Assembly (NCBI GenBank): GCA_021158465.1
Contig: JAGGUN010000052.1
Span: 38,189 to 102,188, forward strand
From: a bacterium
GTDB taxonomy: Bacteria > UBP14 > UBA6098 > 4484-93
Direction: 5' to 3'
DNA: 64,000 nucleotides
Position numbers and translations under genes: made by a program. The notes beneath the pieces are model-generated. The model did not search any database, had not been told where the DNA came from, and saw only the letters and a program-made list of their open reading frames with translations. The first letter of the stretch is position 1; each line of letters begins with the position of its first letter. Below are positions 17,013 to 52,168 of the stretch, piece by piece.

Positions 17013-17714
17013 ATGAATCCAAGAATCTGGAAAAAGGCTCAAAAGAGCGAAAAATCCTGGTGGGAAAAAAGGATAAACTCACTTAACCTCGATTTCTATC
17101 GGCAGTTCGCAGAAGAGATTGTAAACGACATAAAGGAGCACCTCCCTCTATCCACCAAAACCCGTATACTCGAGATAGGTAGTGGAGCCGCAGGAAATCT
17201 AACATTCATCAAGACGGACTATCGGTTCGCGATAGACCCGCTCGAGCTGTTCTTTGCAAGCATCCCAAGATTCCAGGGGATAAGGGATAAGAATGTATCC
17301 TACCTCGCCGCCATGGGAGAAGCACTTCCATTCAAAGATAGCTCGTTCGACCTCGTGATTATCGACAATGTCCTCGACCATTGCCTCTCACCCGAGACAG
17401 TCATACAAGAAACAACAAGGGTAACAAAAAATGGTGGCATAATCCATTTGAAACAGAATATCTTCTCACCATACGGGAAATTCATAAGAATGTTTATCTA
17501 CCGTCTCGGACTGGACAGGAAACATCCGTTCGCTTTCACAGAAAACGATGTCGAAAAGGTTGTGATGAGGAACCAGCTAACTATCCTTACGAAGCAACGT
17601 AGGGGGTTCCTTCGTTCTCTTTACTATGCCTTCTCATCCCCAGAAAGCACAAGCAAAGGAAGCGCAATCCTCTTAGCTATGCGCGACCAGATAAAGATGA
17701 TCTTGAAAAAATAG
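17013..17714 (+). CDS. SAM-dependent methyltransferase (class I)
   Basis: The 233-residue protein carries a Rossmann-type SAM site: [10 protein letters not shown] (motif I, near residue 51), an acidic strand end, and [15 protein letters not shown] (motif IV/V). These mark the Methyltransf_11 group, which acts on small molecules, sugars or lipids; the substrate cannot be named. The ATG directly follows the rpoD stop codon, so it is the last gene of the plus-strand run. The 54 bases before the converging tRNA-Ser show no hairpin terminator. Confidence 0.85.
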
Positions 17715-17768: not shown

Positions 17769-17856
17769 TGGCGGAGAGGCGGGGATTCGAACCCCGGGAA
17801 CCTTACGGTTCAACGGTTTTCGAGACCGCCCCGTTCGACCACTCCGGCACCTCTCC
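17769..17856 (-). tRNA. tRNA-Ser (anticodon CGA)
   Basis: The minus strand folds as a class II tRNA with acceptor GGAGAGG/CCTCTCC, a long variable arm, T-loop GTTCGAAT and anticodon loop TCTCGAA (CGA). G discriminator and CCA (17771-17769) are encoded, unlike in the other tRNAs here. The first 47 bases also encode the last 15 codons and stop of tadA. It is the last member of the tRNA-Glu, tRNA-Arg, tadA unit. Confidence 0.95.
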
Positions 17857-18292
17857 GAATATCATCGAAAAAAACCCTCAATAGCTCCCTGCACTCACTG
17901 GCAAGAACCCCACCTGTTATCAGTATCCTGCCCGAAGGAAACGCACCCGTCGAAAGGAACGCATCAACGGATGGGAACCGTTCATCAGAAGCACCATAGA
18001 CAATCCTCGACACCCTCGCAACACAAAGAGCAGAAAGACACATAAGACAAGGTTCCTTGGTAACATAAACCGTGCACCCTGTAAGCCGCCAATTGTTCAA
18101 TTTTCTCGCCGCCTCCCTGATCACAAGTATCTCTGCATGGGCAGTCGGATCGCAAAGCTGCTCGACGAGATTATGGGCAGAAGAGAGCAACTGACCATCA
18201 CATACAAGAACAGCCCCAACAGGCACCTCACCTATCACCCTCGCTCGCTCCGCCTCCCCGAGGGCAATCCGCATAAAATACTCATCCCTCAT
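17810..18292 (-). CDS. tadA: tRNA-specific adenosine deaminase
   Basis: TadA converts A34 of tRNA-Arg(ACG) to inosine so that it reads CGU, CGC and CGA. Zinc site H52-A-E54 with P81-C82-xx-C85 (EPCLMC) is intact, and [14 protein letters not shown] is the typical start, so I begin at 18292 rather than at the upstream in-frame ATG inside tRNA-Arg. The 160-residue protein reaches the usual family end at VFFDDIR, and its last residues [14 protein letters not shown] are encoded by the 5' half of tRNA-Ser. Its start is 15 bases from the end of tRNA-Arg(ACG), its own substrate. It must be processed from, or compete with, tRNA maturation of the same transcript. Confidence 0.93.
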
Positions 18293-18307: not shown

Positions 18308-18381
18308 TGCGCCCGAGAGGATTCGAACCTCCAACCTACGGATTCGTAGTCCGTTGCTCTATCCAACTGAGCTACGGGCGC
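18308..18381 (-). tRNA. tRNA-Arg (anticodon ACG)
   Basis: Acceptor GCGCCCG/CGGGCGC, D-arm TAGCTCAGTTGG, anticodon loop CTACGAA (ACG), T-loop GTTCGAAT, A discriminator; CCA is not encoded. This is the tRNA whose A34 is deaminated by TadA, encoded just downstream. Confidence 0.95.
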
Positions 18382-18425
18382 CCGCCTATCACTATGTTCT
18401 GCCAGGCTCAGAAAAAACAAAAAAA

Positions 18426-18497
18426 TACCGCTAAGGGGAGTCGAACCCCTGCTGCCGGCGTGAGAGGCCGGTGTCCTAACCACTAGACGATAGCGGC
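18426..18497 (-). tRNA. tRNA-Glu (anticodon CTC)
   Basis: Acceptor GCCGCTA/TAGCGGT, D-arm with TCTAGTGGTTAGGA, anticodon stem CCGGC/GCCGG with loop CTCTCAC (CTC), T-loop GTTCGACT, A discriminator, no encoded CCA. First gene of the tRNA/tadA unit. Confidence 0.94.
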
Positions 18498-18510
18498 ATC
18501 TTCAAATGTT

Positions 18511-18538
18511 ATAGTATCTATTTTTAGAGCTCTGTCAA
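18511..18538 (-). promoter_or_regulatory. Promoter of the tRNA-Glu/tRNA-Arg/tadA/tRNA-Ser unit
   Basis: Minus strand TTGACA (18538-18533), 16-bp spacer, TACTAT (18516-18511), 13 bp before tRNA-Glu. Confidence 0.75.
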
Positions 18539-18677: not shown

Positions 18678-19916
18678 TTGAAAGAAAGTTCTGGTTTGAT
18701 CTTGCTTTTTCTTCTTTTTGTCGTTGGTTTCCTATCTGCTTCGGAGACTGATTGGATAATAAATTTCGAGTTCTACACGGCAGACACACTCATCTCAACA
18801 GACTTTTATAACAGAGCAGCAGTGCATCCTGACGCATCATTGGGACACGACATATTCGATGCGGAGGAGCTTTTCCCCCCTTTCATCTATTATGTGATGC
18901 TCTACTTCCCACATGATAACCCAGAAGACCTAAATACATACTGGGAACCACCATACAACTCCAAATACACCTTTGATTATCATCCGCCCGTCCTCGAGGG
19001 GGAAGATTCCTGGTATATGGAAGCGTATGTCGGACTGAGCTTCCCCACAGATGTCATACTGTCCTGGCAGAATATAGGCTCTGCCCCCTTCGATATGGGG
19101 CTCTTCCTTGTGGATACTGCCACATCAGACACGACAAACCTGAGAGCGGAACAGTTTTTCACCTTTCACACCGCCAGCATGCTGACCGGATATAATTTTG
19201 TTGTAAGGAGGGATGTGAACATAGATTTTAGGATAGTTCCTGTTTCAACAGAACTTACCACAGGGGTTGTTACCCACTTTTATCCCTACATCTACGATAT
19301 CTACGGTGACTCGGTTCTGGTTCCGGTCACATGGAGAACAAATCCAGACGGTATAGGTTACTTCCTCGACAACTTCCGGTTCGTTCCGACAGAAGAGAGA
19401 GATGCTTACATCATAGCAGATTACTATCATCTGAGGGAGGACAGCGTTCTTGTCCACATATCGGGTGAATACGATTCGATATCGGTTTCGCTTCGACCAG
19501 GATGGAATACAATAAGCTTGCCGGTAACGCCGGCAATTGCATCAGCCGACACAGCACTGGGTGACTCACTCAGCAATCTGTTATTCTCCTTTGACCCCAT
19601 TAGCTACGCGTATGAGAGGGCAGAAACTGTTGAGGTAGGCACAGGATATTTTGTCTACTCTGGGGAAGAAAGAAGTATAACGGTTTCTGGTGTTCCCGCA
19701 AGGGAGGTCAGCATACCGCTTTCTCCCGGCTGGAACCTTATCGGAGTGCCGTTCGGAGATGTAGAGGAAATAGTGGTCAGTCCACCTGGCGCTATCTGGG
19801 AAGAGTTCTTTTGGTTCAACCCAGATCTTAGGAGATACGAAACAGCCAGTTCACTTTTACCAGGCAGAGGATATTGGGTTGCAGCATTTGATGAGTGTGT
19901 TCTACTCATAAGATAA
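18678..19916 (+). CDS. Secreted protein with two PGWN modules, no sorting domain
   Basis: The 412-residue protein starts at a TTG with a good Shine-Dalgarno and has a signal peptide ending near FLSAS. The first 250 residues form an unrecognised aromatic- and aspartate-rich domain with many beta-strand-like segments. The C-terminal 140 residues contain two copies of a module that opens R-P-G-W-N or S-P-G-W-N (about 273 and 348) and closes with L-x-x-G-x-GYF/GYW. The same pair occurs in the next gene and in the gene at the right edge, but here the protein ends right after the second copy, without the FlgD-like C-terminal domain. It is probably periplasmic or secreted; function unknown. Confidence 0.7.
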   Translation: MKESSGLILLFLLFVVGFLSASETDWIINFEFYTADTLISTDFYNRAAVHPDASLGHDIFDAEELFPPFIYYVMLYFPHDNPEDLNTYWEPPYNSKYTFDYHPPVLEGEDSWYMEAYVGLSFPTDVILSWQNIGSAPFDMGLFLVDTATSDTTNLRAEQFFTFHTASMLTGYNFVVRRDVNIDFRIVPVSTELTTGVVTHFYPYIYDIYGDSVLVPVTWRTNPDGIGYFLDNFRFVPTEERDAYIIADYYHLREDSVLVHISGEYDSISVSLRPGWNTISLPVTPAIASADTALGDSLSNLLFSFDPISYAYERAETVEVGTGYFVYSGEERSITVSGVPAREVSIPLSPGWNLIGVPFGDVEEIVVSPPGAIWEEFFWFNPDLRRYETASSLLPGRGYWVAAFDECVLLIR

Positions 19917-51783: not shown

Positions 51784-51819
51784 TTAGGATGGAAACAGTT
51801 CAATGAATGGATAATCTAC

Positions 51820-52168
51820 TGGAGGCGGCGGGAGTCGAACCCGCGTCCGATGAAGCCCCAAAAAGCCTTCCTACGAGCGTAGCCAATCCTTTATTTTTCG
51901 CCGGATATGCCCCCGATTGGCAGGGTTCCTATCCGGTATAACCTGCTTATCTCATCCCTCCATCCGCAGGTAAGAAAGAGGGAAGTCCTCAGGTTTTTCG
52001 GCGCCCTGGATGCCCTCCCCTGAGGAGCGGATGGCAACCGGACGGCAGCATTTAAGCTGCTAACGCCAAATTAGCGTCGTTTCTTTTTCTCTGTGTGTTT
52101 AACGAGGACACAGAACCTCGGCTCGCAGACTTCTTCGGCACATTCACCGTCGAGACCCGTTCGCCCCC
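51820..52168 (-). ncRNA. ssrA: tmRNA (transfer-messenger RNA)
   Basis: The minus-strand ends form the tRNA-like part, with 5' GGGGGCG pairing with 3' CGCCTCC and T-arm CGCGGGTTCGACTCCCG at the 3' end. The reading frame ends DANLALAA and a TAA stop (52052-52054), a typical tag ending LALAA. The resume codon cannot be fixed by eye; the frame upstream reads LNTQRKRN. tmRNA frees stalled ribosomes with SmpB and tags the product for proteolysis. It lies 7 bases downstream of tRNA-Lys(CTT), so these are co-transcribed. Confidence 0.95.

Follow-up and report, generated by a model that had tools for sequence, protein, structure and literature searches.

Organization of the tRNA-tadA unit

Within the window, which is the whole stretch of 64,000 nucleotides that was analysed, a compact set of four genes was located on the minus strand by ARAGORN, Rfam, and a reading of the open reading frames, in the order tRNA-Glu(CTC), tRNA-Arg(ACG), tadA, and tRNA-Ser(CGA) (Table 1). 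The tadA message has a tRNA at either end, at a spacing of 15 nt before it and -47 nt after it. Its stop codon, TGA, coincides with nucleotides 45-47 of tRNA-Ser(CGA), and the 47-nt overlap is made up of two nucleotides of the Arg146 codon, 14 whole codons, and the stop. The initial annotation had reported that tadA ends inside a tRNA-Ser gene on the same strand, and its coordinates and frame were right; the "last 15 codons" that it counted are obtained only if the stop is included, the tail itself being 14 codons long. Among the 43 tRNA genes found in the genome, tRNA-Ser(CGA) and tRNA-Arg(ACG) are present in one copy each. An alternative tadA start, the TTG at 18334 inside tRNA-Arg, is in frame, but homology with other TadAs starts at the ATG at 18292, and the TTG was rejected.

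Table 1. Features of the tRNA-tadA unit in window coordinates, listed in the direction of the minus strand.
Feature	Position	Strand	Basis and remarks
Promoter-like TTGACA-16-TACTAT	18511..18538	minus	Consensus scan, 10/12 matches; end of second hexamer 12 nt ahead of tRNA-Glu
tRNA-Glu(CTC), first gene of the unit	18425..18498	minus	ARAGORN, Rfam
tRNA-Arg(ACG), expected TadA substrate	18308..18381	minus	ARAGORN, Rfam; 15 nt from its end to the tadA ATG
tadA, predicted tRNA adenosine-34 deaminase, 160 aa	17810..18292	minus	ATG 18292, TGA 17812-17810; HAE and PCxxC conserved
R146 codon CGG, invariant Arg	17855..17857	minus	Second and third bases shared with tRNA-Ser nt 1-2; Arg invariant across 31 aligned TadAs
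Predicted canonical RNase P cut	between 17857 and 17856	minus	Placed from the tRNA-Ser 5' end
Overlap	17810..17856	minus	First 47 nt of tRNA-Ser: end of R146 codon, R147-R160, and TGA
tRNA-Ser(CGA), CCA encoded	17769..17856	minus	ARAGORN, Rfam; 3' end 17769 or 17772, depending on the tool

The unit is flanked by a divergent plus-strand ORF starting at 18678 and by a convergent plus-strand ORF ending at 17714. Downstream of tRNA-Ser no intrinsic terminator was found, and Rfam gave no SRP RNA adjoining the unit in the window. The promoter-like site ahead of tRNA-Glu was also located in the congener described below, where TTGACA is intact and TACTAT reads TACTTT. Because this site precedes tRNA-Glu and the flanking genes are divergent and convergent, a single transcript for the whole unit is likely. 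Another promoter-like site, at 18197-18170 within tadA, is a candidate start for tRNA-Ser and was counted against the single-transcript view. A T-rich spacer, TTTTTTTGTTTTTT (window 18383-18424), lies directly 3' of tRNA-Glu and is partly kept in the congener; it could have a role in termination or 3' processing. A candidate stem pairing tadA's UUUUUUUUCG with the tRNA 5' end was rejected (mainly G-U pairs, z-score -0.53).

The TadA protein and the authenticity of the overlap

The product of tadA is predicted to be TadA, the tRNA adenosine-34 deaminase. Its top PDB matches were the tRNA adenosine deaminases 2b3j (residues 2-147) and 1wwr (residues 2-146), the latter of which we take to be the Aquifex sequence. 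Pfam and NCBIfam agreed on TadA, the best NCBIfam model being NF008113 at 134.7 bits, which is under its curated 150. The zinc-site residues H52-A53-E54 and P81-C82-C85 are invariant in 31 aligned TadAs, as is R146, the Arg that closes FFxxxR, and the substrate expected of a TadA is encoded directly upstream in the genome as tRNA-Arg(ACG). An AlphaFold model had a mean pLDDT of 90.8, with the last helix at residues 131-146 and an average of about 49 for residues 151-160. By this model, tRNA-Ser begins exactly where the TadA fold ends, and the 14 residues after R146, which are pure tRNA sequence, are predicted to be disordered. The description of the tail in the initial annotation as tRNA sequence read as protein agrees with the sequence. 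Its statement that the body of tadA is complete before the overlap is accurate for the fold, which ends with the helix at 131-146 ahead of a tail of low pLDDT, and inaccurate for the coding sequence, in which the overlap starts within the R146 codon.

In bacteria, the only tRNA on which TadA acts is tRNA-Arg (PMC10027721). The enzyme is essential in E. coli and dispensable in B. subtilis (PMC10027721, PMC10454642), and tight dosage control therefore cannot be assumed. Besides tRNA-Arg(ACG), tRNA-Arg(TCG) and tRNA-Arg(CCG) are encoded (G000, L141), so that the decoding of CGA and CGG need not rely on inosine; with them present, a large supply of TadA may be less necessary.

The unit was compared with that of a congener (G001; NATO01000004.1, labelled Zixibacteria bacterium 4484_93), the TadA of which is 82% identical. 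The overlap, its frame, the stop, the tail, the 15-nt spacing from tRNA-Arg, and the upstream tRNA-Glu are all shared, and the layout is conserved within the genus to this extent. The tRNA-Ser genes of the two congeners have 2 differences, both past the tadA stop; a comparison for selection on the tail thus has very small numbers, 0 changes in the overlapped part versus 2 in the free part. The initial annotation had named a sequencing error at the stop, or a separate tadA copy elsewhere, as grounds for doubting the reading. The overlap is not a sequencing error, because the separate congener assembly has the same frame, stop, and overlap, and no second tadA was found in the genome, where the only other match (31% identity in a 365-aa frame) looks like RibD and was rejected as a tadA.

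The frequency of such overlaps was determined tRNA by tRNA in three genomes picked for having the tadA overlap, an overlap being scored where an ORF had 300 nt or more upstream of a tRNA and entered it by at least 3 nt. ORF-tRNA overlaps were rare in these three genomes: 1 of 43 tRNAs in the genome studied here, 1 of 36 in G065, and 3 of 32 in G036. In each, tadA supplied one case, the only one common to all. Chance was rejected on the strength of the congener and of this genome-wide check, in which tadA was the sole case among the 43 tRNAs. The remaining G036 cases were a doubtful frame and an IspE-like frame that stops at nt 10 of tRNA-Gln(TTG) (L284, G036:C14:125792-125863); the latter is a CDS-tRNA overlap of the same kind, so that tadA is not alone in having one.

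Distribution of the cluster and of the overlap

TadA loci were collected from 60 relatives, three phylum-centred samples, the genomes of which share only the domain with that of the window, and a broad sample of 251 genomes, giving a usable set of 192 loci in 110 family codes. A tRNA-Ser on the same strand no more than 160 nt downstream of tadA was present at 98 of the 192 loci, representing 55 of the 110 families; tRNA-Arg(ACG) was located upstream of tadA in 28 families, and both tRNAs flanked the gene in 19. The fuller form of the cluster is tRNA-Ser(UGA)-tRNA-Ser(GCU)-tRNA-Arg(ACG)-tadA-tRNA-Ser(CGA)-tRNA-Ser(GGA), which is sometimes followed by SRP RNA or tRNA-Ala(CGC). From this spread among families, the tRNA-Arg(ACG)/tadA/tRNA-Ser cluster appears to be old. 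Several near-complete f16 genomes of the G028 phylum (e.g., G069 and G072-G074) gave no TadA match and have close relatives with one; a loss of tadA or a limit of sensitivity is possible.

A tadA stop inside the tRNA was found at 43 loci in 14 families, and 41 of the 55 families with a downstream tRNA-Ser showed none. For these counts, three tRNAs that ARAGORN had started one base early were corrected. In the comparison with related genomes that the initial annotation had proposed, the overlap and the flanking tRNAs were kept in the congener, and the overlap recurred in these 14 families. The stop is located after tRNA nucleotide 14, 22-25, 47, 48, or 57, and all three frames are used; the nt-14 stop of many species is the TGA of the common tRNA-Ser sequence GGCTGAG. 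The stop-to-tRNA distance ranged from -57 to +141 nt, and the distance from the end of the conserved helix to tRNA-Ser formed a continuum from -5 to +156 nt without a clear break. The tRNA contributes some or all of the conserved Arg codon in 7 families. G167, a genome with a TadA end matching the 1wwr sequence, belongs to the same phylum as the -25 group.

A TadA tree was generated with the tails left out; it is based on a short alignment of 147 columns and has many open forks, and on it overlap versus gap needs at least 14 changes, at least 5 of them on starred (well-supported) branches. Within family f13, which belongs to the phylum of the Aquifex-like genome G167, some species have the overlap and others a gap of 1-7 nt. 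In f50, the overlap was present at all 13 parsed loci, and uniform overlap within such groups could hint at a use. The frame reading xGG AGA GGN (Arg-Arg-Gly) was used in 9 of 15 family-by-frame cases, several of which share a phylum; given this preference, protein sequence may matter to some degree for the overlap. In some cases the overlapped tRNA is tRNA-Ser(GGA), and at the sampled loci it was never a TadA substrate. At one locus of a distant family (L155, G285), a TadA that is 48% identical carries nearly the same 14-residue tail and the same 47-nt overlap, a likeness that was assigned to convergence forced by the tRNA-Ser sequence. The tadA/tRNA-Ser overlap appears to have arisen repeatedly in distant bacteria.

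Origin, consequences, and alternative explanations

The layout is probably that of a compact unit derived from the old tRNA-tadA-tRNA cluster and squeezed until the tRNA came to supply the end and the stop of tadA. The four genes from tRNA-Glu to tRNA-Ser(CGA) would form one transcription unit descended from the older cluster, in which the spacer 3' of tadA has been lost, tRNA-Ser now starts within the last conserved codon, and the first in-frame tadA stop is supplied by tRNA-Ser. Since TadA places little constraint on its C-terminal tail, such an overlap would be tolerated. An origin by loss of a spacer is supported by three observations: spacings form a continuum, every frame is used, and the tail can vary freely.

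Transcription would start ahead of tRNA-Glu, and tadA would be translated on nascent or unprocessed RNA, with ribosomes terminating past the anticodon of an unfolded tRNA-Ser, the 5' half of which would be held open by the ribosome at the stop. Ribosomes follow the polymerase closely, so translation could precede cutting. Once tRNA-Ser folded, RNase P would cut its 5' end, and the tadA message would lose its stop and the R146 codon. The cut RNA would end after the first base of that codon and yield no further complete TadA; judged by its sequence, the processed message, without the stop and the R146 codon, cannot encode the whole protein. Any ribosomes left on the cut RNA would have to be rescued, and the genome encodes tmRNA for this. 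The tmRNA gene was identified by Rfam (173 bits) at window positions 51817-52168 on the minus strand, six bases downstream of tRNA-Lys(CTT), and was unreported by ARAGORN.

From the anatomy of the locus it would follow that complete TadA comes only from transcripts uncut by RNase P, and with TadA made on each transcript only before processing, the output of enzyme would be kept low. This limit is best regarded as a by-product of the layout rather than as a demonstrated regulatory device. The initial annotation had predicted that a cut at the canonical site would remove the tadA stop, which is sustained, the cut being expected also to split the R146 codon. It had further proposed that translation and tRNA maturation exclude each other on one transcript; this applies once the RNA is cut, after which no complete TadA can be made from it, and does not apply before, since translation of a transcript can come first and its cutting later.

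The same observations were weighed for a coupling selected as dosage control, a sharper form of the possible feedback suggested in the initial annotation, in which ribosomes on tadA are set against folding of, and RNase P action on, tRNA-Ser, and abundant free RNase P or slow translation stops TadA synthesis and releases the tRNA. Recurrence of the overlap in 14 families, its retention in the congener pair and in all parsed f50 members, the conserved Arg codon that the cut would break in 7 families, and the location of the substrate tRNA-Arg(ACG) within tadA's own unit are in keeping with such a coupling. It is nevertheless rather unlikely: 41 of the 55 families with the cluster do without the overlap, f13 is mixed, frames and stop positions differ and the overlap is gained and lost while the cluster stays, the overlapped tRNA-Ser (sometimes GGA) is never the substrate of TadA, and every tRNA precursor is cleaved by RNase P. 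The proposal that tadA is a repeatedly evolved self-limiting message, inactivated irreversibly when tRNA-Ser maturation cuts through the R146 codon, in a switch between translation and processing that sets the dose of an enzyme sharing a transcript with its substrate, is likewise considered unlikely.

A function for the tRNA-encoded tail in TadA, for example in aiding tRNA binding, might be read from the identical tails of the two congeners and the nearly identical one in the distant family f163. This identity is enforced by the tRNA itself, however, and with unrelated tails in other frames in other lineages, predicted disorder of the tail, and near-tailless TadAs being common (median tail of 3 aa at loci lacking a downstream tRNA-Ser), such a function is quite improbable. 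With the genome available as a fragmented 54-contig draft, an error of sequencing or annotation, or a tadA that is no longer functional, might be suspected; against this stand the congener assembly, the intact zinc-site motifs, and the single tadA copy lying alongside tRNA-Arg(ACG), and an error of this sort is extremely improbable. The compaction of an old cluster, with loss of the spacer, is accordingly the preferred explanation.

Mixed mRNA-tRNA operons of E. coli (tufB and secG-leuU) are produced as one transcript that is cut by tRNA-processing enzymes, as is proposed here. To our knowledge, the coding sequence in those operons ends before the tRNA, unlike that of tadA, and the present case can be regarded as a variant in which an overlapping CDS and tRNA lie within a mixed operon. 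In mitochondrial tRNA punctuation, messages with no encoded stop arise when the tRNAs on either side are excised (Ojala et al. 1981, as summarized in PMC9674279). Animal mitochondria resemble the unit in having a tRNA-flanked message with nearly no spacer, in which excision sets the ends, can remove or split the stop, and gives non-stop messages, and differ from it in that polyadenylation completes the stop and the processed message is the translated one. In the window, by comparison, a bacterial tRNA contains the tadA stop and takes in part of the last conserved codon, and processing would do nothing to the message but destroy it. We know of no rescue by polyadenylation for a bacterial tadA layout of this kind. 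The B. subtilis order yaaJ (tadA)-scr (SRP RNA)-dnaX likewise sets tadA beside structural RNA genes (PMC10454642), and several of the sampled loci have SRP RNA after the tRNA-Ser genes downstream of tadA, as in the B. subtilis neighbourhood. That locus differs in that its description mentions no overlap between tadA and an RNA gene and in that the downstream genes have their own promoters (PMC10454642).

The locus points to an old tRNA-Arg(ACG)-tadA-tRNA-Ser cluster, and no paper describing this cluster, or a tadA overlapping a tRNA, was found in the limited open-access literature covered. In annotation pipelines where a CDS may not overlap a tRNA, tadA could be shortened or lost. One stretch of DNA would serve both as a functional tRNA and as the end of a conserved enzyme, an arrangement repeated in unrelated bacterial lineages. 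Making tRNA-Ser would have to destroy the TadA message, and the order of translation versus tRNA processing thereby becomes testable on one transcript.
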